DNA from: Gammaproteobacteria bacterium | GTDB taxonomy: Bacteria; Pseudomonadota; Gammaproteobacteria; Burkholderiales; Burkholderiaceae_C | DNA: 64,000 nucleotides | Reading direction: 5' to 3' | Assembly: GCA_025359085.1 (NCBI GenBank) | Contig: JANYHL010000082.1 | Span: forward strand, 62,001-126,000 | Shown: piece by piece, positions 333 to 63,805 of the stretch | Position numbering within the stretch: position 1 is the first letter of the stretch | Layout: each line of letters begins with the position of its first letter | Made by a program: the position numbers and the translations under genes | Notes under the pieces: generated by a model | The model's input: only the letters and a program-made list of their open reading frames with translations | What the model was told of the DNA's origin: nothing | Database searches by the model: none

Positions 333-1277
333 ATGCACCTCCTGATTCCATTCGCCTTTTGCAGTTCCGAGGGCTGCCGCCCGGCGCTGGCGCCGCTCCA
401 GCTCCCGAACCTTCAAAAACTGCTGCGCCGCCTGACAGCGCAGCCGATGGACAGCGGCGACGAAGCCAGTCTGTCGCCACCGCACGAACGCGCCTTGGCG
501 CGCGCCCTGGGTTTGCCGACGCAGGACGGCTTGATTCCTTGGGCCGCGCTGCAGGCGCAAACCACCCTGGCCGCCGCGACCGACTCGGCCTGGGCCTTCA
601 TCACCCCCTGCCACTGGCGCACCGGGGCCAAGCATGTCGCCATGGGCGGCGTGCCGCTGCCTGATTTTGAGGCGAAGGAATCTCTTGCCCTGCTGACCGC
701 GATGCAGCCCTATTTTGCTGAAGACGGCATCCGCTTGCACTACGAGAAGCCTGGGCGTTGGCTGGCCTGCGGCGATAGGTTCAATGGCCTGCCCACGGCC
801 TCGCTGGACCGCGTGGCCGGGCGCGACGTGGCGCCCTGGCTGCCCGGCACCAGCAACGCGATTCCCTTGCAACGCCTGCAAAGTGAAATGCAGATGCTGC
901 TCTACCACCACCCGGTCAACGACGCCCGTTCAGCGCGTGGCGTGCCGAGCGTCAACTCGTTCTGGGTCAGCGGCAGCGGCGTCTTGCCCGAGTTGCCGCG
1001 CGTTGCGGCCGCTGCGTCCCCACCGGTGGTGGTGAGCAGCTTGCGCGCTGCAGCCCTGACCGAAGACTGGCCCGCCTGGGTGCAAGCCTGGCAAGCGCTG
1101 GACGGCACCGAATGCGCCGCGCTGTGGGCCACGCTGAATCAAGGTGGTAGCGCTGAACTCACCTTGTGTGGCGAACGCAACGCCCAGACCTTCAGCGCCG
1201 AACCAGCCTCGTTTCTCCAAAAAATTTCAGATCTTTTTGGCTCCAAGCCCCCGTCCCTATTGCTTGAGCAGCTATGA
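333..1277 (+). CDS. RpfE-like / phosphoglycerate-mutase-annotated protein upstream of recJ
   Basis: A 314-residue protein starting MHLLIPFAFCSSEGCR. This ATG is preferred over an upstream in-frame ATG at 255 because the N-terminus here is the one typical of the family. In xanthomonads the gene beside recJ is rpfE, and comamonads carry a homologue in the same place, often annotated as a regulator or phosphoglycerate mutase. No catalytic motif is obvious, so the biochemical role is unknown. Its stop overlaps the recJ start (ATGA), implying translational coupling. The last ten or so codons lie in copy 1 of the dispersed AT-rich repeat, so the C-terminus is probably repeat-derived. Confidence 0.8.
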   Translation: MHLLIPFAFCSSEGCRPALAPLQLPNLQKLLRRLTAQPMDSGDEASLSPPHERALARALGLPTQDGLIPWAALQAQTTLAAATDSAWAFITPCHWRTGAKHVAMGGVPLPDFEAKESLALLTAMQPYFAEDGIRLHYEKPGRWLACGDRFNGLPTASLDRVAGRDVAPWLPGTSNAIPLQRLQSEMQMLLYHHPVNDARSARGVPSVNSFWVSGSGVLPELPRVAAAASPPVVVSSLRAAALTEDWPAWVQAWQALDGTECAALWATLNQGGSAELTLCGERNAQTFSAEPASFLQKISDLFGSKPPSLLLEQL

Positions 1278-1287
1278 AAATATTAGT
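1243..1287 (+). repeat. dispersed AT-rich repeat, copy 1 (spans RpfE-like/recJ junction)
   Basis: Contains the conserved AAGCCCCCGTCCCTATTGC block followed by GCTATGAAAATATTAG. It is closest to copy 6 at 31999, which shares GTCCCTATTGC. The GCTAT arm provides the ATG of recJ and the other half encodes the end of the upstream gene. Confidence 0.7.
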
Positions 1288-2998
1288 CCGAGAGATTCCG
1301 CCCCGCTCTGCCTGGGCGCTGGAGCAAGCCGGCATTCACCCGCTGCTGGCCCAGCTTTATGCCGCGCGCGGCGTGCAAAGCGTGCAGGAACTTGACGACG
1401 GCCTGGCGCGCTTGATTGCGCCCACTGAAATGCGGGGTTTGAGCGCGGCAGCGGCCCTGCTGGCCGACGCGATGGCGGCTGACAAAAAACTCTGCATCGT
1501 GGCCGACTATGACTGCGACGGCGCCACCGCCTGCGCGGTCGGCATTCGGGGCTTGCGCCTGCTCGGTGCCAAGCATGTGACCTACATCGTGCCCGACCGC
1601 GTGGTCGACGGCTACGGCCTGACGTCACCGATTTCAGAACGCGTCAAGGCCAGCGGTGCGGACGTGCTGATCACGGTGGATAACGGCATCGCCAGTTTTG
1701 ACGGTGTCGCCACCGCGCGTGCGCTGGGCCTGCAGGTGCTGGTGACGGACCACCACTTGCCCGCCAGCCGGGACGGCCAGATCGTGTTGCCCGAGGCGGA
1801 TGTGATCGTCAACCCGAACCAACCCGGCTGCACGTTTGCCAGCAAATCCATCGCCGGTGTCGGCGTGATGTTTTATGTGTTGCTGGCGCTGCGCGCCGAG
1901 CTGCGGCAACGGGGCGTGTTCAATGCAGCCACGCAACCGAAACTCGATGCCCTGCTGCCGCTGGTGGCCCTGGGCACGGTGGCCGATGTGGTCAAGCTCG
2001 ACGCGAACAACCGCCGCCTCGTGGCCCAAGGGCTAAAAAGGGTGCGAGCCCTGATGCTGCCTACCGGATTAGCTTCACTTTTCATAGCAGCCGGACGCGA
2101 CGCCACAAGCGCCACCACCTTCGACTTTGGCTTTGCTTTGGGGCCGCGCATCAACGCCGCCGGGCGCCTGTCCGACATGACCTTGGGCATTGAATGCCTG
2201 CTGACTGACGACGCGGCGCGCGGCTTGGAGCTGGCCAAAGCACTTGACGGCATCAACCGCGAGCGCCGTGAGATTGAAGGCAGCATGCGCGAACAGGCTT
2301 TGGCCGTGGCCGAAGCGTTGTTTAACGACAACGAGGAGCCACCCGCCGCCATCTGCGTGTTTGATGCCGACTTTCACGAAGGCGTGGTCGGCATCGTGGC
2401 CTCGCGCATCAAGGACAAGCTGCACCGCCCGACCTTTGTCTTTGCCGCCAGTGGCGCACCCGGACACGCGCATGAGCTCAAAGGCTCGGGCCGGTCCATC
2501 CCCGGCTTTCACCTGCGCGACGCGCTCGACCTGGTGGCCAAGCGCCACCCCGGCGTGCTGCTGCGTTTTGGCGGCCATGCCATGGCGGCCGGCTGCACCC
2601 TTGCCAAAGAAAATTTGGCCACCTTTGAGCAGAGCCTGAGCCAGGTGGCGCAGGAGTGGCTGGATGCCGCCACTTTGCTGCGCCGCCTCGACACCGACGG
2701 CCCGCTCAAACCCGAGTACCGCCGGGTCGAACTGGTGGATGTGCTGCACAAAGAGGTGTGGGGCCAGGGCTTTGCGCCGCCCACTTTCAGCGAAGAGGTG
2801 GAGGTCGTGTCGCAACGCCTGGTGGGGGAGAAACACCTGGCGCTCAAGCTCAAGCACCAGGGCCAGCCGGTGGACGGTATCTGGTTTGGCCACACCGAAC
2901 CGCTGCCGGCGCGCGTCAAGCTTGCGTTCCGGCTGGATGCCGACGCCTGGAACGGCATGCGCCGGGTGCGGTTTTTGGTGGAGGCGGCGGAGCTGTAA
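1274..2998 (+). CDS. recJ: single-stranded-DNA-specific 5'-3' exonuclease RecJ
   Basis: 574 residues, the usual RecJ length. RecJ degrades single-stranded DNA 5' to 3' in RecF-pathway recombination and mismatch repair. Metal-binding DHH-superfamily motifs are visible in order: DYDCDG (78-83), TVDNG (134-138), TDHH (158-161) and GPRINAAGRL. The C-terminal DHHA1 part carries GSGRSIPGFHLRDAL and RFGGHAMAAG. The ATG overlaps the upstream stop by ATGA. Both the start codon region (copy 1) and a weak internal copy (about residues 258-272) coincide with the dispersed repeat. The identification is secure. Confidence 0.97.
   Translation: MKILVREIPPRSAWALEQAGIHPLLAQLYAARGVQSVQELDDGLARLIAPTEMRGLSAAAALLADAMAADKKLCIVADYDCDGATACAVGIRGLRLLGAKHVTYIVPDRVVDGYGLTSPISERVKASGADVLITVDNGIASFDGVATARALGLQVLVTDHHLPASRDGQIVLPEADVIVNPNQPGCTFASKSIAGVGVMFYVLLALRAELRQRGVFNAATQPKLDALLPLVALGTVADVVKLDANNRRLVAQGLKRVRALMLPTGLASLFIAAGRDATSATTFDFGFALGPRINAAGRLSDMTLGIECLLTDDAARGLELAKALDGINRERREIEGSMREQALAVAEALFNDNEEPPAAICVFDADFHEGVVGIVASRIKDKLHRPTFVFAASGAPGHAHELKGSGRSIPGFHLRDALDLVAKRHPGVLLRFGGHAMAAGCTLAKENLATFEQSLSQVAQEWLDAATLLRRLDTDGPLKPEYRRVELVDVLHKEVWGQGFAPPTFSEEVEVVSQRLVGEKHLALKLKHQGQPVDGIWFGHTEPLPARVKLAFRLDADAWNGMRRVRFLVEAAEL
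2045..2090 (+). repeat. dispersed AT-rich repeat, copy 2 (weak, inside recJ)
   Basis: An AGCCCT block, a 20-odd base spacer, then AGCTTCACTTTTCATAGCA resembling the GCTAT-n-ATAGC arm of the other copies. It lies in frame within recJ. The match is degenerate and could be chance. Confidence 0.4.
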
Positions 2999-3024
2999 AC
3001 GCCTGCCTATGCGAAAATGCTCTT

Positions 3025-3924: not shown

Positions 3925-3931
3925 CGCCTCC

Positions 3932-4831: not shown

Positions 4832-4889
4832 GCAGTATTTGCGGCAGCGCTGCCCTTCTGATTGACCCAACTTCACCGACAATACGCCC

Positions 4890-16500: not shown

Positions 16501-19274
16501 TATTCATTGCGGCGGCGGAAGACATGCGTCGCCTGCTGCACCAATTTGCAGCCGGATTCCTCAAGGAACCTAATCAAGCCCTGCTCGACGCACTCAAGGC
16601 CATTCTGGAGATTGAGTTTGCGGCCCTTGCGGCAGGTGTTACTGACAGCTTTTACGATGGTCTACTGGATGAGTCGGAAACTTCCGAGCGCTCCGACTTT
16701 GATCAAATCGCGGTCGACATCCTGCCAGAAGCAGCAATAGAAGAAGAGCCAGCAGCGGAGTTGTTCGTCGCGCCCGAGTTAATGGCAGAGAACGGTGGTT
16801 CGAAGGCTGGTTTGACGGGGGCGCTTGCCGAGCCGGTGGTGTCGGATCAGAGCTTGGCAGAGCCGCTCGTATCGACACCTGCCGTCGACATCCTGACAAG
16901 CACCGCAGTCAGCGATGATGAAGTGGAGCGTATTGACGCAAATGATGCGCTTGACGTCGACCTGTTCCCGATTTTTGAGGAGGAGGCGCTTGAACTGTTG
17001 CCGCAGCTTGGCGGCGCCTTACGACAATGGATTGCTCGCCCGGTCAACCTGGGTGCTCGCCATGAAGTGCTACGGGTTCTGCATACGCTCAAAGGCAGTG
17101 GGCGACTGGCCGGCGCCATGAAGTTGGGTGAGATGACTCACCGCATGGAAAGCGCGATTGAGCAGATGGGGAGCGAGGCTTTGTCGGCCGGGAAGCTGGA
17201 GCCTCTATTGGCGCGTTTTGATGCCATACAAGCCAACTTTAACCAGTTGCGAGCGACACCTGAACAGGCTTTGCGTCTGCCAGAGGTCAGTCCGCAGGCC
17301 CGAGAAGGCATCGTTTCTGTCGCCCTCGGCGAGACCTTGGCGGCAAGTAGCGAACCGAGAAAATCGGTAGCATCCGATACATCGGCATTTATCCCTCGGG
17401 CATCGCCGCGCCCGGGAACTCAACAAACCGTGCGCGTGCGTTCACAGTTGCTGGACCGCCTGGTCAACCAGGCCGGCGAGGTGATGATCACGCGCTCGCG
17501 GATGGAGGCCCGCCTGGGTCAGTTGCGAGGATCCCTCGGTGAGCTAACCGGCAATCTGGATCGTTTGAGAAATCAGTTGCGCGATATCGAGGTGCAGTCG
17601 GAGTCCCAGATGCAGTCCCGACTGGCGCAAGCCAAAGACACGGCGCAGGGTTTTGATCCGCTGGAATTTGACCGCTTTACCCGGGTGCAGGAGCTGACGC
17701 GGATGATGGCCGAGTCGGTGCATGACGTCGCCACGGTGCAGCGTAATTTACTGCGGGCAGTGGAAGGTAGCGAAGACGATCTGATCGCACAGGGGCGCCA
17801 GGCCCGCGAGCTGCAACGCGACCTGCTCCGCACCCGAATGGTCGAATTTGACGGCATCTCCGATCGTTTATACAGTGTCGTTCGCCAGGCCGCCAAGGAG
17901 AGCAACAAGCAGGTCAAACTCAACATTAAAGGGGGTTCACTGGACATGGATCGCGGAGTGCTTGATCGCATGGCACCCGTGTTTGAACATTTGCTGCGCA
18001 ATTCAGTGGCGCACGGTATTGAAGACTCGGCGCGGCGCGTGGCGGCGGGCAAACCGGCGGCGGGCACGATCAGCATCCATCTGCACCAACAAAGCAACGA
18101 TGTGACCGTGGAGTTCAGTGACGACGGTGCCGGGCTGGATATGGACCGAATCCGCGAAAAAGCACGCATCAATGGCCAGTTGTCGGCGCAGGGAACCTTG
18201 TCCGATGCGGAGGCCGCTGACCTGATCTTTACCCTCGGTTTTTCCACTGTCGAGAAAGTCACCGAGTTGGCCGGGCGTGGCATTGGCATGGACGTCGTGC
18301 GCTCAGAAGTCAACGCGTTGGGGGGTCGTATCGAAACATCGACCGAACGTGGCCAGGGAACAAAGTTCAAGCTGGTGCTGCCGCTCACGACGGCGGTGAC
18401 GCAAGTCGTCATGTTGCGCATCGGTGAGTTGGTGATCGGCGTGTCAGCCAGTCTGATTGAGATGGTACGACGTGTGCCGATTGCCGATCTTGAGCGCGCC
18501 CACCAAGACCACGTGTTTGCCTTTGGGGACGAACAGGTGCCGTTTTTCTGGGGTGGCGCCCTGTTACAGGCGTCGGCTTACAGTAGCGAAACCCACACCA
18601 AGACCTTGCCGGTGGCTATTTTCCGCAGTGCGGGTCAAAGAATTGCAGCGCACTTCGATGAAGTGCTGGGTAATCAGGAAGTGGTGGTCAAAAACCTCGG
18701 ACCCCAATTGTCCCGCCTGCCAGGCCTGACCGGTATGTCGGTGTTGGCCTCAGGTGCCGTGGTCCTGATCTACAACCCGGTGGCCTTGGCGGCCGTTTAT
18801 GGAGAACGAGCGCACCAACTGAGTCTGGCCGCGGTGCAGGCGATAGGGCAAACCGCCACACCCGTGCCGGCGTCCTCCCTGGCCCGGGTCAGTCAGATGC
18901 CTCTGGTGTTGGTGGTAGACGATTCCATCACGGTGCGCCGTGTCACGCAGCGCCTGCTCAAGCGCGAGGGCTTTCGGGTCGCACTTGCCACCGACGGTCT
19001 GCAGGCGCTGGAGCGTTTACAAGAGGAAAAGCCAGCGGTCGTGCTGTCGGACATTGAAATGCCGCGCATGGATGGCTTTGATCTGGCACGCAATATCCGA
19101 GGCGATGCCAAATTGCGCGATCTGCCCATCATCATGATTACTTCGCGCATTGCGGAGAAACATCGTGAACGGGCCCGCGAACTCGGTGTTGATCATTACC
19201 TGGGCAAACCGTATTCTGAAGACGAGCTGATTGGCCTGGTGCGCCAATACTGCCTGTCTACGGTTGAGGATTAA
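13512..19274 (+). CDS. pilL: Pil-Chp hybrid sensor kinase PilL/ChpA
   Basis: 1,920 residues from the ATG preceded by CAGGAG. Earlier in-frame TTG (13485) and GTG (13500) starts are possible. The N-terminal 690 residues are helical with no clear phospho-site. Three Hpt sites follow: H695 (FHTLKGSSR), H956 (LAHSLAGSS) and H1191 (LHTLKGSGR). Next come the CheA dimerisation helix pair and an HATPase with N box LLRNSVAHGIED near 1,495 and GRGIGMDVVRSEV. A CheW domain follows, then a receiver domain with D1847 in LSDIEMPRMDGF. It autophosphorylates and feeds PilG and PilH. Other ChpA proteins carry more Hpt-like sites, so the N-terminus may hold decayed ones. Confidence 0.95.
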   Translation: MQENAAPTGAHEPAIHDLGPLAWVLEELRKSLTGATKALRRFVRDAELARGSDLAALDASQLRIARQQLHQAVGALEMVGMAVPAKILRSMEALAQRFVQRPELCSEEAANKVERASFALTEYLEGILKGKSASSVALFPQYRDVLELVGSDRVHPADLWPIELRWMDVALPQEVPALAYDSSVRTRLDQAVLKIVKSGDVAAAQAMCGISLGFAAAQNDLKARIFWKISAAYFEAVSLGLCPTDVYGKLAASRILLQFRTLARGEPGISERLVQDLLFFCAQAVPTLAADAPVLAAVRAAYGLTQTKSFDYERPQFGRFDPALLVQARKRIAAATETWSALAGGDTNRLKVALDQFSLVTDSVLKIHAESGELVRALMQAIEKTALSGEAPAPALAMEVATVVLYLEAAYDDLDPTDSQMKERSSSLAARMEHVNAGGQPEPLEAWMEELYRRVSDRQIMGSVVDELRTTLGGVEKSLDSFFRNPLDKVPLHEVPSQLAQMRGVFSVLGLDQAAVAALRMRDSVEKFLVDDIDADAARAGIFEKLGNSLGALGFLIDMLSYQRTLAKKLFVYDEELGEFKRLMGREKVSERTEELAPLPSVERVIDDVLTDFQIPFSLPTTVAAEAPAPLLVLPAEPLSPVAVAPIEDDDETELKDIFLEEAREVVQVGFGALRALADEPTDLGQQTTLRRAFHTLKGSSRMVGLNEFGEAAWSMEQLFNTWLAEQKPASPELLRLADKAMHGFNRWVEDIAAGEDAQWDAQTFRRAADGLRLDNTEVDLVLPGEEMPAPVEGASPYPDFVSTQIFDLDVAQALDVNLASALDDDARLSSAVSVPDVPLVLDDFDFGVSADFAPPADEAAVLLNAQDTVETFSSELGELVNETADLQPEPQQASLLDLYLEEQVKVIGSLRIDIPLYNVYLNEADELSRRLLTELSEWALELHRPVEETTIALAHSLAGSSATVGFFALSEMARALEHALQHVRLHVQGIPEHAQVFIAAAEDMRRLLHQFAAGFLKEPNQALLDALKAILEIEFAALAAGVTDSFYDGLLDESETSERSDFDQIAVDILPEAAIEEEPAAELFVAPELMAENGGSKAGLTGALAEPVVSDQSLAEPLVSTPAVDILTSTAVSDDEVERIDANDALDVDLFPIFEEEALELLPQLGGALRQWIARPVNLGARHEVLRVLHTLKGSGRLAGAMKLGEMTHRMESAIEQMGSEALSAGKLEPLLARFDAIQANFNQLRATPEQALRLPEVSPQAREGIVSVALGETLAASSEPRKSVASDTSAFIPRASPRPGTQQTVRVRSQLLDRLVNQAGEVMITRSRMEARLGQLRGSLGELTGNLDRLRNQLRDIEVQSESQMQSRLAQAKDTAQGFDPLEFDRFTRVQELTRMMAESVHDVATVQRNLLRAVEGSEDDLIAQGRQARELQRDLLRTRMVEFDGISDRLYSVVRQAAKESNKQVKLNIKGGSLDMDRGVLDRMAPVFEHLLRNSVAHGIEDSARRVAAGKPAAGTISIHLHQQSNDVTVEFSDDGAGLDMDRIREKARINGQLSAQGTLSDAEAADLIFTLGFSTVEKVTELAGRGIGMDVVRSEVNALGGRIETSTERGQGTKFKLVLPLTTAVTQVVMLRIGELVIGVSASLIEMVRRVPIADLERAHQDHVFAFGDEQVPFFWGGALLQASAYSSETHTKTLPVAIFRSAGQRIAAHFDEVLGNQEVVVKNLGPQLSRLPGLTGMSVLASGAVVLIYNPVALAAVYGERAHQLSLAAVQAIGQTATPVPASSLARVSQMPLVLVVDDSITVRRVTQRLLKREGFRVALATDGLQALERLQEEKPAVVLSDIEMPRMDGFDLARNIRGDAKLRDLPIIMITSRIAEKHRERARELGVDHYLGKPYSEDELIGLVRQYCLSTVED

Positions 19275-19331
19275 ATTAGCCTCTAGCCCTCGTTGATACT
19301 GAATAGTACGCTATTTATTAAGTAGCAAAAT
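19274..19331 (+). repeat. dispersed AT-rich repeat, copy 3 (intergenic)
   Basis: A full copy between the convergent pilL and phrB genes: TTAGCCTCTAGCCCTCGTT, a spacer with GATACTGAATAGTAC, then GCTATTTATTAAGTAGC. Near-identical in its first half to copy 7 at 42213. Confidence 0.85.
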
Positions 19332-23376: not shown

Positions 23377-24681
23377 ATGAAAACACTGACAAATATTCTG
23401 ATTCAAGGCGGCCGGGTCATGGACCCGGCCAGTGGTTTTGATGAAATAGTGGATGTAGCCCTTGCCAATGGGACGATTCTAGCTATCAAAAATATAGCTT
23501 CTGATTTCCGGCCCGATCAAATCGTCGACGCCAGCGGCTGCATCGTGATGCCCGGTTTGGTGGACCTGGCGGTGCGGCTGCGCGAGCCCGGTCATGAACA
23601 TGAAGGCATGCTGGAGTCGGAAATGGCCGCGGCAATGGCCGGCGGGGTCACCAGCCTGGTGTGTTGGCCTGACACCGACCCGGTGCTCGATGAGCCGGGC
23701 CTGGTCGAGATGCTGCGCTTTCGGGCCGAAAAACTGAACCAAGCCCGGGTTTATCCGCTCGGCGCCTTGACCCGCAATCTGGCCGGTGAATCATTGTCCG
23801 AGATGCAGGAGCTCACCGAGGCCGGCTGCGTAGGGTTCAGCCAGGCTGAAGTTCCGCTGCCCAACACCCAAGTCATGCAACGCGCGTTTCAATACGCCAG
23901 CACCTTTGGCTACGCCGTCTGGTTGCGCCCGCAGGACTTATTTTTGGGTCAAGGCGTGGCCGCCAGTGGCGCCTTGGCGACCCGCTTGGGACTGAGCGGC
24001 GTGCCGGTGGCGGCTGAAACCATTGCCCTGCACACCATTTTCGAGCTGATGCGCGCGACGGCTGCACGCGTGCATTTATGCCGCCTCAGCAGTGCCGCGG
24101 GCGTGGCCTTGGTGCGTCAGGCCAAGCTCGACGGCTTGAATGTGACTTGCGACATCAGCATCAATTCACTGCATTTGACCGATGCCGACATTGGTTACTT
24201 TGACAGCCGGGCTCGCCTCAATCCGCCCCTGCGCCAGCAACGTGATCGCGATGCGCTGCGTGCCGGTTTGTTGGATGGCACCATCGATGCACTGGTGTCC
24301 GATCACACACCCGTGGACGAGGACGCCAAAACGCTGCCGTTTGCCGAGAGCGAACCGGGTGCCACGGGCGTGGAGTTGCTGCTGAGCCTGGCCCTCAAAT
24401 GGAGCCAGGACAGTGGCGTCAGTCTGGCGCGGGCCTTGGCCGTGGTGACCAGTGGACCGGCCGCCGTTTTGGCTACCTCGCTCGGCAAAAGACAGGCCAG
24501 CACCGGGCGTCTGGTCGCCGCCGGCGCGGCCGACCTGTGCGTGTTTGACCCGGCAGCCGCCTGGACCGTGCAGAGTGATGCCTTGCGCAGCCAGGGCAAG
24601 CACACGCCGTTTTCCGGCTATGAGTTGCCGGGTCGGGTACGCTGCACGATCATGGCGGGGCGGATTGCGTTCGGGGAATAA
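23377..24681 (+). CDS. dihydroorotase-like protein, probably inactive (PyrC'/PyrX type)
   Basis: 434 residues; ATG 23377 is preferred to ATG 23365, which overlaps pyrB. The amidohydrolase fold is clear (VMPGLVDLAVRLREPGHEHE, SDHTPVDEDAKTLPFAESEP). The first metal motif, DxHxHLR in active enzymes, reads DLAVRLR here (A65, R67), and the usual AHxS is CRLSS. Active-site histidines are therefore missing, as in the non-catalytic partner that holds class A ATCase together. Residues about 26-43 are encoded by dispersed-repeat copy 4. A separate active dihydroorotase should exist elsewhere in the genome. Confidence 0.9.
   Translation: MKTLTNILIQGGRVMDPASGFDEIVDVALANGTILAIKNIASDFRPDQIVDASGCIVMPGLVDLAVRLREPGHEHEGMLESEMAAAMAGGVTSLVCWPDTDPVLDEPGLVEMLRFRAEKLNQARVYPLGALTRNLAGESLSEMQELTEAGCVGFSQAEVPLPNTQVMQRAFQYASTFGYAVWLRPQDLFLGQGVAASGALATRLGLSGVPVAAETIALHTIFELMRATAARVHLCRLSSAAGVALVRQAKLDGLNVTCDISINSLHLTDADIGYFDSRARLNPPLRQQRDRDALRAGLLDGTIDALVSDHTPVDEDAKTLPFAESEPGATGVELLLSLALKWSQDSGVSLARALAVVTSGPAAVLATSLGKRQASTGRLVAAGAADLCVFDPAAAWTVQSDALRSQGKHTPFSGYELPGRVRCTIMAGRIAFGE
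23454..23505 (+). repeat. dispersed AT-rich repeat, copy 4 (inside pyrC-like gene)
   Basis: TGTAGCCCTTGCCAATGGG then AGCTATCAAAAATATAGC. Closely matches copy 10 read on the opposite strand. Translated in frame as part of VDVALANGTILAIKNIASDF. Confidence 0.75.
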
Positions 24682-26926: not shown

Positions 26927-28360
26927 TTACTGGCGCGGCTCACCCTGCGCATTGACGGCCACGGTGTTGCCGGGCGGTGTCGTCATCTGAATGCGATGTT
27001 CCTGACCCCGGAAGTTGTAGCTAACGTCCCAATACTGGGGCTTCTGGTTGGGTACGTTTTCGCAGCGCCGCACGTCTTGGGCTGCTGCCTGTTGGCCGCC
27101 GCCGACGTTGGCACCAAGAGCGGCCCCGGCGATCGCGCCGCCGACGGTGGCGAGGTCCTTGCCGGTGCCACCGCCAACCTGATGGCCCAAAATGCCGCCG
27201 AGCAAGGCGCCGGCAATCGCAGCCGGCGCGTTGTTGTTTTGGGAAACTTGACCGGGCTCGACCCAGCAGCGCTGTTCAGGCGTACCCATCACCGCACGCA
27301 CCGAGGTGACGTTGGCTTCAAACAGCCGTTCGTCGCGTTGCGGGCGGAAATCGGGCGCCGCCACGGGGGCCGCGACCAGCGCGGGAGCATAACGACGGTC
27401 GTCGATGCGCTCATTGTGGTCCAGCATGCGCACCGACGAGATGCGGTCGTTCAAGCCCATGGCCCGCAATGACGGGTAGTTGCCCTGACGCAAAACCACG
27501 CACTGTCCGCGGAACTGGACGTCGTCGCAGACCTCCCAACGCTCGCCCACGACAACCACGGATGAGGCACGGTCATTGAAGCCAAAGCGGTTGAAGTTGT
27601 TGACTTCGCGGGCCGTGGTGAAGGACCGGCCGTTCAGTCCCTCGTTTTCGTAGAAAGTGATCTGCGCAGCTACTGGCGCTACCGCGGCTGCGAGTGCTGG
27701 CGCATAACGGCGCTCATCAATGCGCTCATTGCGGTCGAGCGCTCGCACCGATGACACGCGGTTGTTCAAGCCCATGGCACGCAGTGACGGATAGTTGCCC
27801 TGACGCAAGACCACGCACTGCCCATTGAAGCGAACATCGTCGCAGACCTCCCAACGCTCACCCACCACCACCGCCGATGAAGCGCGGTCATTGAAGCCAA
27901 AGCGGTTCAAATTGTTGACCTGCGCGCCGGTAGTGAAAGAGCGGCCGGATAAGCCCTCATTTTCATAAAAGGTAATCTGCGGGGCTGCAGCAGCGATCAT
28001 CGGAGCCGGTGCCGGCGCATAGCGCCGGTCATCGACGCGGGTGTTGCGGCTCACGGCGCGCACCGAGGTGATGCGGTTGCTCAAGCCCATGGCATTGAGT
28101 GACGGGTACTTGCCCGGGCGCAGCACGACACAGCGGCCGCTGAAGCGTTGGTCTTCGCACGCTTCCCAGCGCACCCCGACGACCACCGCCGACGAGGCGC
28201 TGTCGTTAAAGCCCCGGCGCGCCAGGTTATCGACCGTTCTGGAAGTCGTGAAGGACTCGCCTTGATAGCCTTCCTGCTCGAAGAGAGTAACTTGGGCTGA
28301 CGCGTGCGCGGCCAGGGCCACGGCGGTCACTGCCAATGCGTTTTTCAATAGTGCGTTCAT
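26927..28360 (-). CDS. secreted triple beta/gamma-crystallin protein with C-terminal glycine zipper
   Basis: 477 residues from MNALLKNALAVTAVALAAHA, a signal peptide likely cut after HASA. Three Greek-key beta/gamma-crystallin domains lie at about 23-103, 127-208 and 233-313, each with TFYENEGLxGRSFTT or VTLFEQEGYQGESFTT, RWEVCDD, CVVLRQGNYPSLRAMGL and RxSSVR. Linkers repeat IDxRRYAPA. The C-terminus has a glycine-zipper stretch (about 382-424, GALLGGILGHQVGGG) of the Rickettsia 17-kDa type. Domains 2 and 3 are nearly identical, pointing to recent duplication. Bacterial crystallin domains often bind calcium; here the role is unknown, probably envelope-associated. Confidence 0.9.
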   Translation of the reverse strand: MNALLKNALAVTAVALAAHASAQVTLFEQEGYQGESFTTSRTVDNLARRGFNDSASSAVVVGVRWEACEDQRFSGRCVVLRPGKYPSLNAMGLSNRITSVRAVSRNTRVDDRRYAPAPAPMIAAAAPQITFYENEGLSGRSFTTGAQVNNLNRFGFNDRASSAVVVGERWEVCDDVRFNGQCVVLRQGNYPSLRAMGLNNRVSSVRALDRNERIDERRYAPALAAAVAPVAAQITFYENEGLNGRSFTTAREVNNFNRFGFNDRASSVVVVGERWEVCDDVQFRGQCVVLRQGNYPSLRAMGLNDRISSVRMLDHNERIDDRRYAPALVAAPVAAPDFRPQRDERLFEANVTSVRAVMGTPEQRCWVEPGQVSQNNNAPAAIAGALLGGILGHQVGGGTGKDLATVGGAIAGAALGANVGGGQQAAAQDVRRCENVPNQKPQYWDVSYNFRGQEHRIQMTTPPGNTVAVNAQGEPRQ

Positions 28361-28796
28361 TCGTTGTTCCTGTAAAAGGTTGTGGTGGGTTGCCAATCCA
28401 CACCGGAATGCGACTGGCATCCAGAAGTCCAGTAACACAGTGGGAACTATCTTCTCTGCATCAGAGGGCGTCTGTGCGGCAGCAAACATAAGTCAGCCAG
28501 TTCATGAATTAATTTGCTATTATTTATATAGCTACTTACCTATAGTGAACGAGGGCTAGAGCCGAAATTGACTTAGCAGTTGGGGGCTGACAGGAACGCT
28601 TGTTCGGTGCCCGCACTGAGGCCCGCCGCTTGACGTGGTCAGGCCAAAAACGGCGGCAGAACCGATAATCGGCCATCCGTGACGCGCTGTCACCTCTTTA
28701 TGCAAACCGGAATCCATTGATGTCAACTGCCCCCCCCCTGCTTCTCCTGCCCCAGCCAGCGGGCACGCCGCCTGTTGGACTGGCCGGAGGAGGCGC
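28361..28796. other. 436-base intergenic region between divergent genes
   Basis: It holds the leader of the crystallin gene, repeat copy 5 (28511-28568), and about 200 bases without any gene-like frame. It ends with a strong ribosome site GGAGGAGG a few bases before the trhP ATG. An 8-C run occurs near 28730. Confidence 0.6.
28511..28568 (-). repeat. dispersed AT-rich repeat, copy 5 (intergenic)
   Basis: Reverse-oriented full copy: GCTATTATTTATATAGC, spacer, then GAGGGCTAGAGCCGAAATT. Lies between the divergent crystallin-domain gene and trhP. Confidence 0.85.
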
Positions 28797-31998: not shown

Positions 31999-32055
31999 AA
32001 ATTGGGCTTTAGCCCGCGTCCCTATTGCGTAATAAGCTATAAAATAAATAGCAAT
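31999..32055 (+). repeat. dispersed AT-rich repeat, copy 6 (intergenic)
   Basis: Full copy with a perfect GGGCTTTAGCCC palindrome (32004-32015) followed by GCGTCCCTATTGCG and GCTATAAAATAAATAGC (32036-32052). It lies between divergent ferredoxin and DHH genes, right in their promoter region. Confidence 0.85.
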
Positions 32056-32075
32056 TAAATTAAACTCGTCTTTCC

Positions 32076-33280: not shown

Positions 33281-33571
33281 ATGAATAAATCGCTTGTTTT
33301 GGCCGCCGTTATTGCTGCTGCTGCTTTGGTCGCTTGTGGTAAAAAAGAAGAGGCTCCCGCACCCGCTGCTGCGCCTGCCCCTGCTGTTGTTGAGGCTGTG
33401 AAAGATGCTGGCATGGCTGCTGCTGCTGCCACTGACGCTGCTTCTGCTGCCACCAACGCTGCCTCCGCCGCGACGGGTGCAGCTGCTGCTGCTGTTGGTG
33501 CTGCTGGCGACGCTGCCAAGGCTGCCGTTACTGAAGCAGCCAAGCCTGCCGTAGAAGCTCCCAAGAAGTAA
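33281..33571 (+). CDS. small alanine-rich lipoprotein
   Basis: 96 residues from MNKSLVLAAVIAAAALVACG; an in-frame upstream start at 33233 is rejected because the signal peptide begins here. The lipobox LVAC marks lipid attachment at C19. The mature part is about half alanine with a Pro-Ala stretch and repeated ATDAASAATNAASAAT blocks that would form an amphipathic helix. Its function is unknown; it resembles small helical envelope lipoproteins. It has its own leader and terminator and so is probably monocistronic. Confidence 0.85.
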   Translation: MNKSLVLAAVIAAAALVACGKKEEAPAPAAAPAPAVVEAVKDAGMAAAAATDAASAATNAASAATGAAAAAVGAAGDAAKAAVTEAAKPAVEAPKK

Positions 33572-42212: not shown

Positions 42213-42271
42213 AAATTAGCCTCTAGCCCCCGTCAATAGTGCATAAGTAGCTATTTAAATTGAAGCAAAAT
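42213..42271 (+). repeat. dispersed AT-rich repeat, copy 7 (overlaps hisC start)
   Basis: Full copy: AAATTAGCCTCTAGCCCCC, spacer CGTCAATAGTGCATAA, then GTAGCTATTTAAATTGAAGC. The TTG of hisC (42260-42262) lies inside its 3' end. Confidence 0.85.
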
Positions 42272-43360: not shown

Positions 43361-44257
43361 CTCGGCATACAAATCGCTATATATTTTATAGCGATTGGCG
43401 CTTATTCCATCAGGGCTGCCGTCGGGTTTGACGGCGGCCATCACGCCACAGCCGGGTTCATGCAGGTGGCTGCAGTTATAAAACTTGCAGTTGGCCACAT
43501 GGGGTTTGAAGTCCGGCATGTAAGCGGCCAACTGGGCCGGGTCGATGTGGTTCAGACCAAACTCCTGGAAACCCGGCGAGTCGATCAACGCCGTGGTCTT
43601 GTCCGCGTCAACCCAGTACCAGGTGGTGCTGGTGGTGGTGTGTTTGCCCGAGTTGAGGGCTTGCGAAATTTCACCGGTCTGGGCCAGCGCGCCGGGCGCC
43701 AGCAGATTGATCAAGGTGCTCTTGCCCGCGCCCGACGGCCCCAGCACCAGCGTCGTTTTGCCGTGCAGCAGCTTGAGCAGTTCCGCCTGATCGACATCAC
43801 CCGACTGCTTGAGCGACAGCGGCAGCACGCCGTAATGCATTCGCCGGTAAGGACGCAGCCACGCCCAGGCGCGCGCGAAGGGCTCGACCAGATCACTTTT
43901 GTTGAGGGCAATGATGGGCGTGATGTGCTCGGCTTCGGCCGCGATCAGCGCGCGCGAGAGCTGGCTGCTGGAGAACTCAGGCTCTGCGGCGATCAGGATC
44001 AGTATCTGGTCCAGGTTGGCCGCAAATGACTTGGTCCGAACTTCATCCTGGCGGTAAAAGACATTGCGGCGTTCTTCGATCTTCTCGATCGTGCCTTCGT
44101 CCTGCGAGGCCTGCCACAAGACGCGGTCACCCACCAGCCCCTGGCTTTTTTTGCCGCGCGAGTGGCAGATCAAGCGTTTGCCTTGCGGCGTCTCCACCAG
44201 AAAGTGGCGACCATAGTTGGCGACGATCAAGCCGCGGTCGAGGGTGGCCCGTTCCAT
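43337..44257 (-). CDS. rsgA: ribosome small-subunit-dependent GTPase RsgA
   Basis: 306 residues from [19 protein letters not shown]; the longer frame upstream is shadow of the pterin dehydratase gene. An OB domain is followed by the permuted GTPase ([10 protein letters not shown] then [14 protein letters not shown] and DSPGFQEF) and a zinc knuckle [14 protein letters not shown]. It matures the 30S subunit. The last 27 residues are partly encoded by dispersed-repeat copy 8 ([12 protein letters not shown]). Confidence 0.95.
43375..43420 (-). repeat. dispersed AT-rich repeat, copy 8 (3' end of rsgA)
   Basis: CGCTATATATTTTATAGCG then GCGCTTATTCC and a GGGCT block, aligned with copy 10. In frame at rsgA residues about 280-295. 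Confidence 0.65.
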
Positions 44258-44279: not shown

Positions 44280-44615
44280 TCATGCCAACAAGGCGTCAAC
44301 CCGCGCGGCGCTGTCAAAATCGGCGATCGAGAGACCGCCCACGTCATGGGTGTGGAAACGCACCACGCAGCGCTGGAAATGCACCGATAAATCAGGGTGG
44401 TGATCTTGCCGGTGGGCGATGAAGGCCAGCGCATTCACGAAGGCCATGGTCTCGTGGTAATTGGCAAAGCTGAAGGTCTTTTCAATGGCCACGTCGGCCC
44501 CATCGCCAGTCAGTCGCCAACCTTCGAGTCGGGCCAGATTAGCTACTATTTCTGTAGCATTAAACGCATGTTTGACAGGGGCTAGAGCCTCATTTGTCTT
44601 AAGAATCGTGTTCAT
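44280..44615 (-). CDS. phhB: pterin-4-alpha-carbinolamine dehydratase
   Basis: 111 residues. The active-site signature AHRQDHHPDLSVHFQRCVV followed by FHTHDVGGLSIADFDSAA is complete. It dehydrates 4a-hydroxytetrahydrobiopterin in phenylalanine hydroxylase recycling; phhA is not in the window. rsgA follows after 22 bases. Residues about 8-25 are encoded by dispersed-repeat copy 9. Confidence 0.93.
   Translation of the reverse strand: MNTILKTNEALAPVKHAFNATEIVANLARLEGWRLTGDGADVAIEKTFSFANYHETMAFVNALAFIAHRQDHHPDLSVHFQRCVVRFHTHDVGGLSIADFDSAARVDALLA
44542..44594 (-). repeat. dispersed AT-rich repeat, copy 9 (5' end of phhB)
   Basis: GCTACTATTTCTGTAGC, spacer, then GGGGCTAGAGCCTCATTT. Read in frame in phhB as EALAPVKHAFNATEIVA. 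Confidence 0.75.
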
Positions 44616-50240: not shown

Positions 50241-51206
50241 TTAGTAGTGCAAAACTGAGGGATTGTACCAATGCAGCGTCGCAGCTCTGCGCTCGCAAAA
50301 GCCCGTGCCAACCTTGATTCGAATCTGGTGGCCTCGCGTGGTGCAAACGGCAATCTGGTCCAGCAGCTCAGTCAATTGCGCCGTGCTGGGCACAGTTTGA
50401 AAAGCGGTGTTGAGCCAATGGCGCAGCACATTGGCTTGTCGTGGGCGACTCAACCCTTGCAGCAACGCAATCACGGGTGGGATACCAATGTGCGCCATAT
50501 CTTGCGCCGCCACATCAAGCAACACCGCCTGCGCCTGCGCGGCATGAGCGGCACTGCGCGCAAAAGTATCGCGAAATTGCGCAAAGGTGGCGTCCAACGC
50601 GGGCAGCAAGCGCGCTCGGATACGGTTGCGGGTGAACTGTTCATCGCCATTGGTCGGGTCCTCAATCCACGCCGCTCCACGAGCGACCAACCAGCGCCGG
50701 ATTTCTGACGCCGCCACCCGCAGCAGCGGGCGGTGGTATGTGAGCCCGGCGCGCTGCCAACTCGCCGGCATGGCGCTCATGCCTGGCAAGCCAGCACCCC
50801 GACTCAGCGCCAGCAGCAGCGTTTCCACCTGATCGTCGGCATGCTGCGCTATTGCTATATTTTTTATAGCTGATTGCCCATATTCCACGAGGGCTACAGC
50901 CTCAAAAGCCTTGTATCTGGCACGGCGAGCTGCATCTTCGGGGCTCTGGCCCGAGGCGTGACGCGCGTCCACGCGCTTGACCACCAGCGGCAAGCCCAGC
51001 CGCGCGCAAACCGTCTGGCAGTGCTGTTCGAACTCATCGCCCGCCGCCTGCAGACCGTGGTGAATGTGGATGGCGTGCACCTGCCCCGGCCATTTTTCAG
51101 CACAGGCCAGCAGCAAAGCGGTGGAGTCTGCCCCGCCACTGAAGCCCACCGCCAGCGGCAGGGTCGGCCTGAAGGCCGCCATGGCGTCCGAGAGGGTGGC
51201 AGTCAA
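50241..51206 (-). CDS. tilS: tRNA(Ile)-lysidine synthase
   Basis: 321 residues. The PP-loop SGGADS (23-28) and the second motif AQHADDQVETLLLALSRGAG are intact; the C-terminal domain is short. It makes lysidine at C34 of tRNA-Ile(CAU) and is essential. Residues about 101-119 (FEAVALVEYGQSAIKNIAI), just before HADDQ, are encoded by dispersed-repeat copy 10, yet overall spacing between motifs is normal. Confidence 0.94.
   Translation of the reverse strand: MTATLSDAMAAFRPTLPLAVGFSGGADSTALLLACAEKWPGQVHAIHIHHGLQAAGDEFEQHCQTVCARLGLPLVVKRVDARHASGQSPEDAARRARYKAFEAVALVEYGQSAIKNIAIAQHADDQVETLLLALSRGAGLPGMSAMPASWQRAGLTYHRPLLRVAASEIRRWLVARGAAWIEDPTNGDEQFTRNRIRARLLPALDATFAQFRDTFARSAAHAAQAQAVLLDVAAQDMAHIGIPPVIALLQGLSRPRQANVLRHWLNTAFQTVPSTAQLTELLDQIAVCTTRGHQIRIKVGTGFCERRAATLHWYNPSVLHY
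50854..50907 (-). repeat. dispersed AT-rich repeat, copy 10 (inside tilS)
   Basis: GCTATATTTTTTATAGC (50854-50870), spacer TGATTGCCCATATTCCAC, then GAGGGCTACAGCCTC. Strong match to copies 4 and 8. Confidence 0.8.
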
Positions 51207-52306: not shown

Positions 52307-52957
52307 TCAATATTCCACCGGCAGCGGGTCCAATGAGCGCCAAATATACCAAGTTGCCACGCTGCAATACGGCGCCCAGGCGGCGGCTACTTCGCGGGCG
52401 TCGCTGCGGCTGACCGTGTCACCCGAGAAATAGTTCTTGCTGATGCCATTGAGCAGCCCTACATCGTCCAGCGGAAGTACATTGGGGCGCATCAGGTGGA
52501 AGATCAAAAACATCTCAGCCGTCCAGCGACCAATGCCGCGAATGGCAATCAACTCGGCAATGATTGTTTCATCGTCCACGGTCTCCCAAGTTTCGACGTG
52601 CACCGCGCCACTGTCAAAGTGCAGCGCCAGGTCCACCAGGTATTCCACCTTGCGCACACTCAAGCCCGCTGCGCGCATGTCATCGACCTTGAGCTTGAGC
52701 ACATTGGCGGCAGTGATCTGTTTCGGTAGCAGCGCAAAACGATTCCAGACGGTCTGAGCCGCCTTGACCGAAATCTGCTGCCCCACCACGCTGCGCGCCA
52801 GCGTGACAAAAGCATCACCCCGGGTCTGCAGGCAAGCTTCGCCAAACTGCGGAATGAGCCGCTTCATGACCCGGTCTTTTTTCATCAGGTGCTTGCACGC
52901 GTCGCTCCAGTAGGCTGGGGACGCCATCACTGACGCTATAGTTTTAGTAGTTACCAT
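52307..52957 (-). CDS. DNA-3-methyladenine glycosylase II-type (AlkA/HhH-GPD)
   Basis: 216 residues from ATG 52957; GTG 52969 or ATG 52927 ([10 protein letters not shown]) are alternatives. The HhH-GPD core [19 protein letters not shown] and the catalytic aspartate in [10 protein letters not shown] are present, with [18 protein letters not shown] near the start. It removes alkylated bases from DNA. The first eight residues of this start lie in repeat copy 11; family members usually begin near MASPAYW, so the repeat may have inserted just upstream of the original start. Confidence 0.88.
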
Positions 52958-52988
52958 TGAACTATCCACGGGGGCTAGAGGCCGAAAT
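52935..52988 (-). repeat. dispersed AT-rich repeat, copy 11 (5' end of AlkA-like gene)
   Basis: GCTATAGTTTTAGTAGT, spacer, then CGGGGGCTAGAGGCCGAAAT. Covers the possible GTG and ATG starts of the glycosylase gene. Confidence 0.8.
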
Positions 52989-56929: not shown

Positions 56930-57525
56930 AATCTACACGTTTTTCGGCCCTAGCCCCCGCAACTATTGCGGTTGCAGCTATTATTTCAATAGCATCAGAC
57001 GCATGGGCGCAAGCGCCCGCCCAGGTTAAATTTGCCACCACGGCCGGTGATTTTGTGGTCGAGGTATACCCCGACAAGGCACCAAAAACGGTCGAAAACT
57101 TTTTACAGTACGTCCGCGACAAACATTACAACGGCACCATCTTCCACCGCGTGATCCCCAACTTCATGATCCAGGGCGGTGGTTTTGACGCCCAGTACGC
57201 CGAGAAGAGTACCCGCGCGTCCGTTGTGCACGAAGGCCGGGAAGCACTGGCCAAAGGCGGCATGAAGAACGTGACCGGCACGCTGGCGATGGCCCGCACC
57301 AATGATCCCCAATCTGCCACCGCGCAATTTTTTATCAATGTCAAAGACAATGCGTTTCTGGACCCCTCGCCGCAGCAATATGGCTACACCGTATTTGGCA
57401 AGGTCACCAGCGGCATGGAGGTGATCCAGAAGATCAAAACCGTGCCCACCGGCCCGGCAGGTCCTTTTGGCTCGGACGCGCCAAAAACGCCAATTATTAT
57501 CAACTCTGCAACCCTGGTGAAGTAA
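56926..57525 (+). CDS. ppiA: periplasmic peptidyl-prolyl cis-trans isomerase (cyclophilin, PpiA)
   Basis: 199 residues from ATG 56926, preceded by GAAGGAG and overlapping the transpeptidase stop. Signal peptide to about ASDAWA, then the cyclophilin core [35 protein letters not shown] and VFGKVTSGMEVI. It isomerises Xaa-Pro bonds of envelope proteins. Residues about 7-24 of the signal peptide (SALAPATIAVAAIISIAS) are encoded by dispersed-repeat copy 12. Confidence 0.94.
   Translation: MKSTRFSALAPATIAVAAIISIASDAWAQAPAQVKFATTAGDFVVEVYPDKAPKTVENFLQYVRDKHYNGTIFHRVIPNFMIQGGGFDAQYAEKSTRASVVHEGREALAKGGMKNVTGTLAMARTNDPQSATAQFFINVKDNAFLDPSPQQYGYTVFGKVTSGMEVIQKIKTVPTGPAGPFGSDAPKTPIIINSATLVK
56944..56996 (+). 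repeat. dispersed AT-rich repeat, copy 12 (ppiA signal peptide)
   Basis: TCGGCCCTAGCCCCCGC, spacer AACTATTGCGGTTGCA, then GCTATTATTTCAATAGC (56977-56993). Fully in frame. Confidence 0.75.
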
Positions 57526-57528: not shown

Positions 57529-58035
57529 ATGAGCAACCCCCAAGTCGAACTCCACATCGCGAACTACGGCGTCATCACCCTTGAACTCGATCAAGACAAG
57601 GCACCCAAGTCAGTGGCCAATTTTTTGAGTTACGTCAACAAGGGCCACTATGACAACACCATTTTTCACCGTGTCATACCCGGCTTCATGGTGCAAGGCG
57701 GCGGCATGGAACCCGGCATGAAAGAAAAAAAGGGCGACCAATCAATCGCCAACGAGGCTGACAACGGCCTGAAGAACCTCAACTACACCGTCGCCATGGC
57801 CCGCACCGGCGACCCGCATTCGGCCACCGCCCAGTTTTTCATCAATGTTGCCGACAACGGTTTTCTGAACCACACCGCCATTTCAGCCCAGGGCTGGGGC
57901 TATGCGGTGTTTGGCAAGGTCGTCGCGGGCAATGATGTGGTTGACAAAATCAAGACCGTGAAGACCGCCCGCAAAGGCTACCATGATGACGTGCCGGTGG
58001 ACGACGTGGTGATTGAAAAGGCTGTGGCACTCTGA
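57529..58035 (+). CDS. ppiB: cytoplasmic peptidyl-prolyl cis-trans isomerase (cyclophilin, PpiB)
   Basis: 168 residues with no signal peptide: [20 protein letters not shown]. Core motifs [35 protein letters not shown] and [16 protein letters not shown] are intact. It is the cytoplasmic partner of the adjacent periplasmic ppiA, which lies 3 bases upstream; the pair looks like an ancient duplication. Confidence 0.95.
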
Positions 58036-59031: not shown

Positions 59032-59042
59032 ATACTGTCTAT

Positions 59043-59119
59043 TGGTCGGTGTGAAAGGATTCGAACCTTCGACCCCTTGCACCCCATGCAAGTGCGCTAC
59101 CAGGCTGCGCCACACACCG
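59043..59119 (-). tRNA. tRNA-Pro (anticodon GGG)
   Basis: On the minus strand, acceptor CGGTGTG pairs with CACACCG followed by A and CCA. Anticodon stem CTTGC/GCAAG encloses ATGGGGT, anticodon GGG (codons CCC and CCU). The T arm is GAAGG-TTCGAAT-CCTTTC. Length 77. Confidence 0.96.
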
Positions 59120-59157
59120 ATTAAGAATGCAATTATAACCGCTGGTCACCCGCAGCT

Positions 59158-59607: not shown

Positions 59608-59710
59608 TTGAATCAATGCGGCCGGAGAATAATTTTGCAGGTTACCGCAAGTCACCACGGTGTGTAAAGCAGCAAATCAGCTCCAGACACCAAATAACCA
59701 CACCCCGACC

Positions 59711-60046
59711 CTAGGGCGCTAAAGGCATCCGATCTTGATCCTGAATTTGCTCTTTGAGTTTGTAGCCAGCATGAAACGTCACCACCCGGCGCGCCTGAAT
59801 GGGAATGGTCTCACCAGTGCGCGGGTTGCGCCCGGGACGGGGCGCCTTGGTGCGGATCTGAAAATTTCCAAAACCTGAAATTTTGACGTCACCGCCCTGT
59901 ACCAGGCTGTCAGCCACCAGATCAAAAAACGCGTCCACCATGTCTTTGGATTCGCGTTTGTTCAAACCTATTTTTTCAAACAGCAGCTCAGCCAACTGCG
60001 CCTTCGTCAGTGCTGGCATCTCCAGGCTTTCAACCGGCAGGTCCAT
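59711..60046 (-). CDS. ihfA: integration host factor subunit alpha
   Basis: 111 residues from [20 protein letters not shown]; a start at 60019 (MPALTKAQ) would give the shorter E. coli-like form. The DNA-bending arm motif [20 protein letters not shown] and [12 protein letters not shown] match IHF-alpha. It bends DNA with IhfB. It follows pheT, as in many proteobacteria. Confidence 0.94.
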
Positions 60047-60083
60047 GGGGTACTCGCTTCTTGTTCGGATTGATGATGAATGA

Positions 60084-62513: not shown

Positions 62514-62638
62514 AGTCTTTAGTGGGTTGGGGGACCGGGCTGGCAGCTAGCAGCGCAGCGCGTGGTCCCGCAAAACTTTTTAAGGGGTTGAGGACAGCGC
62601 TTGATCGCTTCGCGCAAAGAAGGCCTGTCTTGTCAGGT

Positions 62639-63712
62639 TTACACAAATTGCGACAGAAAGCGAACATCGCCGTCAAAAAATAAACGCAGATCATTCACGC
62701 CATAGCGCAGCATGGCGAGTCGGTCCGGCCCCATGCCGAAGGCAAAACCAATGTATTTTTCAGGTTCCAATCCCATATTGCGAATCACGTTGGGATGCAC
62801 TTGTCCCGAACCCGCCACTTCCAGCCAGCGACCCGCCAGCGGTCCGCGTTGGAACTGGATGTCAATCTCGGCACTGGGCTCGGTAAACGGGAAAAAACTG
62901 GGGCGAAAACGCAGCACCAGGTCATCCGACTCAAAGAAGGTGCGGCAAAAATCGGTAAAGACAAATTTCAGGTCTTTGAAACTGACGTTCTCGCCGACCC
63001 ACAGGCCTTCGCACTGATGAAACATCGGCGAATGGGTCGCATCGCTGTCGACGCGGTAGGTGCGCCCCGGCGCAATGACGCGAATCTCGGGCATATCGCC
63101 TGAAAAAAGTTCTTGCGCTGGCCCCACACCCGCCTGCGCGCGGTGGCGTTTGACATGCTGCACCGCATAGCGGATCTGCATCGGGCTGGTATGCGTGCGC
63201 AGCAGATTGGGGGCATTGGCAGTACCGCCTTCGACATAAAAAGTGTCGTGCATGGACCGCGCCGGGTGGTCCTGCGGCGTATTCAGTGCTGTGAAGTTGA
63301 ACCAGTCCGACTCGATCTCTGGCCCTTGCGCCACATCAAAGCCCATCGAGCCAAAGATCGCCTCAATGCGCTCCAGCGTGAGCGACACCGGGTGCAAACT
63401 GCCCTGGCCCCGCTGGCGGCCAGGCAAGGTCACGTCCAGTGCTTCGGCTTGAAGTTGCAACTGCAATTCGGCATCGGCCAGTGCCTGGCGGCGCTGGTTC
63501 AAGGCCGCTTCAATCGTCTGCTTGGCCAGATTGATGATGGCGCCGCGCGACTTCTTCTCGTCCACAGACAACGCAGCCATGCCCTTCATCAACTCAGTGA
63601 TGCGGCCCGACTTGCCCAAAAACAAGGCTTTGGCATTTTCCAGGTCGGCCGGTGTGCGGGCTTGCTCGAAGGCGGCTTTGGCGCTGTCAACGACGATGTT
63701 CAACTCGTTCAT
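62639..63712 (-). CDS. pheS: phenylalanine--tRNA ligase alpha subunit
   Basis: 357 residues from [26 protein letters not shown] upstream is the likely ribosome site. Class II motif 2 [20 protein letters not shown] and motif 3 [18 protein letters not shown] are complete. An in-frame ATG 15 bases upstream is less likely. Repeat copy 13 occupies the gap to rplT. Confidence 0.97.
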
Positions 63713-63749
63713 AAGTTCTCTTGTCATTGAAAAAGGGCTAGTGCCATTT

Positions 63750-63805
63750 AAAGCTCTAGCCCTTGTCTCTATTGCATAGTACGCTACTAAATAAATAGCG
63801 TATCA
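63750..63805 (+). repeat. dispersed AT-rich repeat, copy 13 (rplT-pheS gap)
   Basis: CTCTAGCCCTTGTCTCTATT, then GCATAGTACGCTACTAAAT and AAATAGCGTA. A second GGGCTAG at 63735 forms an inverted pair with CTAGCCC (63756-63762). Confidence 0.85.

Follow-up and report, generated by a model that had tools for sequence, protein, structure and literature searches.

A rigid 59-position palindromic repeat within and between genes, a candidate uptake-like signal in comamonad bacteria

A repeat with two palindromes recurs through a stretch of 64,000 nucleotides from a member of the Burkholderiaceae_C (assembly GCA_025359085.1, contig JANYHL010000082.1, positions 62,001 to 126,000), hereafter the window; from its sequence we take the host to be Rhodoferax-like. 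We show here that the examined copies of this repeat are a 59-position signal that stands in either orientation and occupies fixed sites across three sister species and, for several genes, across the genus. As judged from alignments with orthologues and solved structures, overlay on existing coding sequence recurs among the genic copies, yet it is not the sole mode. The reading that we consider most likely, and put forward tentatively, is that the motif serves as an uptake-like self-recognition signal.

Repeat unit, copy number and fixed sites

The original prediction had listed 13 places in the window where the repeat seemed to occur. A covariance model of 59 positions, trained on 12 window copies and one copy outside, recovers 12 of them at E <= 5e-9. 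Since the window copies had trained this model, they were rescored with an independent weight matrix made from 70 copies, all from outside the window; the same 12 copies score 30-76 bits and nothing else in the window exceeds 8. As negative controls, order-4 Markov sequence (1.28 Mb) had no match above 6 with this 70-copy matrix, and the reversed window and 160 kb of two motif-poor relatives had none above 8. The repeat family thus exists as predicted. The place near 2045, already marked as weak, drops out: it gave just a 17-base match (E 3.8) and is unmatched by the matrix from outside copies. A second, broader matrix is less clean: motif-poor genomes (308 kb) contain 2 matches above 14, and in the reversed sequence of motif-rich genomes (638 kb) scores reach 23; counts at orthologous sites and at the site beside the transposase gene RAYT that use a cut-off of >14 therefore carry some false matches.

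The predicted two-palindrome layout stands, while its size of 45-60 bp and its GGCT-nn-AGCC block have to be corrected to a fairly rigid unit of 59 positions with the left block GGSCTCTAGCCC. The consensus is about AAATTGGSCTCTAGCCCCCGTCAATATTGCGTAAGCAGCTATTAAATTAATAGCAAAT, in which AGCCC, GCTA and TAG are best conserved, mostly at fixed distances. Of the two hairpins the left is the poorer, with 76% of cells paired versus 87% for GCTAY-n7-RTAGC. The left palindrome is followed by CGT, often CGTC, and by eye the copies have AAAT-like ends. Information content is ~55 bits in the 70 best copies, and the GC of 138 copies from the host genome ranges from 0.29 to 0.59. A search of Rfam at E <= 1 assigns the copies to no family. 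Neither hairpin shows compensatory covariation within the host genome, and selection on an RNA structure was rejected on that ground. Between genomes, the middle segment varies with the dialect, as in GCGCTT..AAGCGC, CCCTT..AAGGG and CCCCCGT..GCG, and the arms of the middle change together (GCGCTT..AAGCGC versus CCCTT..AAGGG), as seen by eye on the dialect consensus lines.

The host genome comprises 3.16 Mb in 149 contigs and has at least 150 matches among those listed, all at E <= 8.2e-6. The window and 40 further stretches, 850 kb together, hold 138 matches at E <= 0.01, which by extrapolation gives ~500 copies per 3.16 Mb or ~1 per 6 kb. Gene context was read from 863 kb of host sequence with simple gene calls and copies above 20 bits; 88% of this DNA is coding. 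Among the 147 copies, 65 are intergenic, 46 internal to genes, 11 inside genes near their ends and 25 overlap gene ends. The internal copies show no orientation bias, 25 following the gene and 21 opposing it, so that the predicted occurrence in coding and non-coding DNA and in both orientations is borne out. Genic copies are concentrated in two reading frames, which hold 49 of 57: one running with the gene, which encodes A-L-A-P..A-I-x-x-I-A, and one in reverse. Genic copies encode peptides that recur, for instance ALAPV..AIK.IA. The frame preference does not come from stop codons alone, because the phase-0 frame of the same orientation is stop-free in 55 of the 147 copies, compared with 67 for the favoured frame, yet holds 2. 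Median scores are 41 for genic and 57 for intergenic copies. Where the gene family was identified, many genic copies sit in genes for translation or RNA modification (truB, tilS, tlyA, rlmJ, rsuA-like, rsgA and two class I tRNA synthetases).

Copies are spaced more evenly than expected by chance, with a coefficient of variation (CV) of 0.73. Uniform placement gives a CV of 0.97 (0 of 1000 as even), placement matched by class 1.02 (0 of 2000), and the strictest control, which allows one copy per gene or gap, 0.91 (4 of 2000). One stretch of 26.9 kb, positions 1-26884 of contig C87 (L045, L046), is free of copies above 20 bits; it holds many short genes, mostly of 47-59% GC, and is possibly an acquired island. 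That it is a prophage was not established, as PHROG matches occur in 2 of 10 proteins and are mostly of unknown function.

Site conservation was followed for 28 host copies on contig C127 in two sister genomes, G365 and G374, at ~85% nucleotide identity. The alignment spans 14 of these copies in G365 and 13 in G374. A clean insertion gap was seen at 0 of 14 and 0 of 13 spanned copies, with a few indels of 1-3 bases, and the motif is retained above 20 bits at 13 of 14 and 13 of 13. The reciprocal comparison revealed no insertion gap at spanned copies of G365 and G374 either. Divergence in the two sister pairs is 8.2% and 10.5% at strongly conserved motif positions, 15.0% and 14.6% in the flanks, and 26.9% and 25.5% at weak motif positions; core positions change 2.4-3.3 times slower than spacer positions. 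In more distant genomes, chosen as motif-rich or near relatives and not as a random sample, the motif stands at the tilS site in 12 of 12 and at the pyrC site in 10 of 10 examined.

The repeat spreads through the family beyond the host genome, as had been suspected, with at least one match in 109 of 299 genomes and 61 of 141 genera, whereas 0 of 24 genomes from other families of the order have any match. Within the genus, 28 of 36 genomes, the host included, have matches at E <= 0.001, and among the matches listed copy numbers are bimodal, with <=18 in 16 genomes and at least 47 in 20. The PyrC or TilS site scores >15 in 10 of 10 genomes with at least 47 copies and in 0 of 13 with <=18; where both sites were read (21 genomes), the motif stands at both in 7, at neither in 11 and at one of the two in 3. 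Base composition was rejected as cause of this abundance, since the low-copy genome G006 has 54% GC. A RAYT gene tree requires no fewer than 4 changes between high and low counts, and motif presence requires 5 on a pyrC tree from which the gene start including the site was removed, both with moderate branch support. At four orthologous sites, read in up to seven genomes, copies tend to fit the matrix of their own genome (joint permutation p 4e-4), whose mean rank is 2.5 of 8 and which is best in 8 of 27; the dialect matrices rest on 8-132 copies each, the largest being that of the host genome.

Overlay and insertion inside genes

For PyrC, the alignment of 30 genus loci, the best 30 of 56 genus genomes with a match and including the host locus, has no gap in the element region. 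Motif-rich genomes spell GTA GCC CTY GCC AAT ... GCT ATT AAA AAT ATA GC, while motif-poor genomes encode nearly the same residues with other codons. TilS shows the same pattern, with gaps of 2-4 codons only, in a few motif-free genomes. In both genes the motif-spelling codons of motif-rich genomes are rare codons. The rsgA site scores 40 in the host genome, 25.5 in G374 and 9.7 in G365, and the difference consists of substitutions only.

Eight further genic copies were compared with solved structures; they were picked by eye from 20 family-scanned proteins, four of them for suspected extra length. Five of the eight lie over existing sequence, with a difference of 0-8 residues, and three beside 20-25 extra residues; because of the way the cases were picked, this 5:3 split is not an unbiased ratio of overlay to insertion. 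TrpF aligns without gaps, its QFHG standing opposite QLHG in the two structures shown, and TruB, SDR, ECH_2 and PgeF differ from structures in length by 4-8 residues, not 20. At the copies in TlyA and RlmJ, in contrast, there are 23 and 25 additional residues, and a HAD dehalogenase has ~20, in pieces and partly beyond the copy. These three copies are compatible with insertion. The overlays cannot be simple insertions, because the residues exist in motif-free orthologues or structures (PyrC, TilS, TrpF).

The original prediction had seen a parallel to the in-frame palindromic elements of Rickettsia. Such entry into genes is unsupported as the main mode, given that PyrC and TilS align gapless or nearly so and five of eight structure cases are overlays; at PyrC and TilS, orthologues within the genus have the same residues at the sites, an observation of the kind that had been named in advance as speaking against it. 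In-frame insertion as general origin was thus rejected for PyrC, TilS, TrpF, TruB, SDR, ECH_2 and PgeF, and keeps its support from the extra residues of TlyA, RlmJ and HAD. An origin by substitution, as described for uptake sequences, is displayed by PyrC, TilS, RsgA and TrpF, largely by TruB, SDR, ECH_2 and PgeF, and not by TlyA, RlmJ and HAD.

Candidate readers and rival explanations

Published systems are compared here on the basis of the accessible parts of the cited papers. Two groups of uptake sequences are described, the uptake signal sequences (USS) of Pasteurellaceae and the DNA uptake sequences (DUS) of Neisseriaceae, and in 2006 none were known outside these two families (PMC1626085). 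They are ~10 bases long, occur about once per kb in coding and non-coding DNA without orientation bias and with regular spacing, and USS are not insertions (PMC1626085); their dialects follow lineages (PMC3630211). The repeat resembles them in its presence in coding and non-coding DNA, lack of orientation bias, regular spacing and lineage dialects. It is for these traits, together with the substitution origin of several genic copies, that we favour an uptake-like role, and also because comamonads are reported to be selective: Verminephrobacter eiseniae binds and takes up DNA selectively, and Acidovorax temperans is transformed solely by DNA of its own species, which sequence homology could also explain (PMC4212676).

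Under this reading, a recognition system that varies along with the dialect would read the signal in the form of double-stranded DNA; the rigid spacing and the lack of an effect of orientation point to double-stranded DNA. The reader may be the DNA-uptake machinery, for instance a type IV pilus minor pilin or a competence complex, which is the least certain step. The repeat would then be a self-mark, kept through biased uptake and recombination (molecular drive) and in several genes spelled by substitution over existing coding DNA with little change to the protein. If the reader were lost, the copies would decay together to ordinary codons. A more far-reaching version, that comamonads possess a third, independently evolved DNA-uptake system with a long multi-hairpin motif, species dialects, genome-wide codon rewriting and several losses within the genus, is conceivable and somewhat more doubtful.

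Several observations weigh against an uptake signal. With 59 positions and ~1 copy per 6 kb, the motif is much longer and sparser than USS and DUS; it has hairpins, where those have ~10 bases with or without flanking AT motifs and occur at 1 per kb. No receptor for the motif was found, the search for ComEC in 40 genus genomes being uninformative: the protein occurs in 38 of 40, in high- and low-copy genomes alike, does not track copy number and has no match in two motif-bearing genomes, G023 and G365. As a gene that would discriminate motif-rich from motif-poor genomes it was therefore set aside. The motif is also found in phage genes, in 19 stretches of 17 viral contigs (L379-L397) that rescored at 29-61; the pattern used for this search matches only 32 of the 147 host copies. 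Some of the viral copies fall within phage-type genes: in a terminase large subunit and in DNA methyltransferases they stand close to the C-terminus, in a primase-helicase ahead of the AAA domain. The distribution of RAYT, described below, and the extra residues in TlyA, RlmJ and HAD count on the same side. The latter could be covered by recombination, by which neisserial DUS often arise, facing gaps in other genomes (PMC2397512).

The phage copies and the behaviour of ComEC would fit a site bound throughout the genome by an intracellular factor, such as a nucleoid, segregation, replication or repair protein, held by ordinary selection and without a link to uptake. Fixed sites, a constrained core, even spacing in either orientation, the rigid 59 positions and dialects are equally in line with such a factor. 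We nevertheless consider it unlikely, as the repeated near-complete absence of the motif in one genus (4 or 5 changes on two trees) would be odd for a housekeeping function, and ~55 bits are far above what one site per 6 kb needs.

A system of repetitive extragenic palindromic (REP) elements was first suggested by the flanks of RAYT. The one Y1 transposase match of the host genome is REP_Tyr_transpos (NF047646), and two copies flank it (L001). The open reading frame (ORF) downstream of this RAYT gene is presumably gltB. The gene (L001:1462-2166) has on its 3' flank TGTCCCCAATTATT/CTGACCCCAATTATT repeats, which are like the GGGGWSAS terminal repeats of 'TIRtrons' (PMC3733652). The host RAYT protein is 76-91% identical to that of the best 80 loci. 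In the family, RAYT occurs in 74 of 78 genomes with at least 9 listed copies versus 126 of 221 others, counts that ignore phylogeny, and in the genus a score >14 for the copy immediately 3' of RAYT is reached in 13 of 16 high-copy and 1 of 14 low-copy genomes; an independent-pair test of this copy had 3 pairs only and was powerless. As with the GTAG- and CGTC-tagged REPs (PMC3733652), the repeat is palindromic, reaches hundreds of copies, flanks RAYT, is in part genic and has CGT, often CGTC, after the left palindrome. REPs within genes beyond Rickettsia have already been shown (PMC3733652); the four comamonad names searched for are absent from the main text of that paper.

These likenesses, along with the insertion-like copies in TlyA, RlmJ and HAD, would suit a REP-like non-autonomous element mobilised by RAYT, whose copies in genes would be old, now immobile insertions or conversions that were tolerated. 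We regard this as improbable. RAYT as a sufficient driver was rejected, since 15 of 16 genus genomes with <=18 copies keep a nearly full-length RAYT match at 66-84% identity, so that, unlike in REP/RAYT systems, RAYT is retained where the motif is nearly absent; conversely, G008 has 75 copies and no RAYT match in an assembly that is 82% complete. The copy 3' of RAYT is conserved no better than the tilS (12 of 12) or pyrC (10 of 10) sites, and no insertion or empty-site polymorphism is seen at spanned copies of three species. Overlays on existing residues also speak against mobilisation. Unlike REPs of 20-40 bases (PMC3733652), the unit has 59 positions, an AT-rich right hairpin and several genic copies that arose by substitution.

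Insertions of the Rickettsia type, palindromic within reading frames as here and making new peptide segments, are very improbable and largely refuted for the cases tested: they would account for the recurring peptides and the three cases with 20-25 extra residues, but most tested genic copies are not in-frame insertions, PyrC and TilS (genus) and TrpF, TruB, SDR, ECH_2 and PgeF (structures) have no 20-residue insertion, and spanned copies in two sister species show no empty sites.

Window copies, related repeats and significance

In the window, simple gene calls place four of the 12 copies inside genes (23445, 43371, 50849, 56940) and three across gene ends (1234, 19273, 42213). Where four purely intergenic copies had been predicted, five are so classed, and for two of these (44537, 52930) the class depends on the choice of start codon. 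The copy at 1234..1292 (+) spans the end of the ORF 303-1277 and the start of recJ, thereby containing the upstream stop and the recJ ATG, and that at 19273..19331 (+) stands between two convergent gene calls, touching both ends, at a site shared with G365 and G374. Within pyrC (dihydroorotase), 23445..23503 (+) covers residues 27-47 of the ORF from 23365 and lies over residues common to orthologues. The copies 28511..28569 (-), between divergent gene calls, 31999..32057 (+) and 63746..63804 (+) are intergenic. The copy 42213..42271 (+) extends into an aminotransferase class I/II ORF at its called 5' end, while 43371..43429 (-) occupies C-terminal codons of rsgA and 50849..50907 (-) residues 100-120 of tilS. 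Two copies lie at uncertain gene starts: 44537..44595 (-), N-terminal in a pterin-4a-carbinolamine dehydratase ORF or immediately ahead of it, and 52930..52988 (-), at the 5' end of a gene for a HhH-GPD base-excision glycosylase. Finally, 56940..56998 (+) forms N-terminal codons, signal-peptide-like by eye, of a cyclophilin peptidyl-prolyl isomerase gene. This gene also contains the first (57258-57364) of two 107-base stretches that are 74% identical at a spacing of 507 bases, the second (57765-57871) lying within the next ORF. Other repeats of the window are three 300-base tandem repeats at 27369-28298 with a period of 315 bases, of which the second matches the first at 79% and the third at 66% identity, and a GCTGCT-rich low-complexity tract at 33365-33550 with nine overlapping 48-base repeat matches.

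Among published motifs that may be related, GCTTAT(N)5AAGCG of Acidovorax ebreus, listed with a pair from Polaromonas naphthalenivorans as potential novel motifs without known role, fits the middle of the dialect of G033, and no genome surveyed had more motif pairs than Rhodoferax ferrireducens T118 (PMC5217627). Unlike the repeat described here, these are pentamer pairs, mostly intergenic ones being listed, and the accessible parts of that survey give no 59-base unit, gene overlay or dialects. The beta-proteobacterial repeat elements (BRE) occur in comamonads and are in some copies genic, as here; compared by description only, they differ in having 75-91 bases, 64-79% GC in Bordetella and <=29 copies per genome listed (accessible parts of PMC3110155). 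No prior description of the 59-position unit was found in the accessible literature that was searched.

The orthologue comparisons presented here indicate that 'in-frame palindromic insertions' need an orthologue check before they are taken as such. A signal that is abundant or nearly absent across a genome, changes its dialect between species and is spelled over existing codons offers a direct route to study how genomes are rewritten toward a recognition system. If the motif is truly an uptake signal, it would represent a third group of uptake signals, in environmental bacteria for which selective transformation has been reported.

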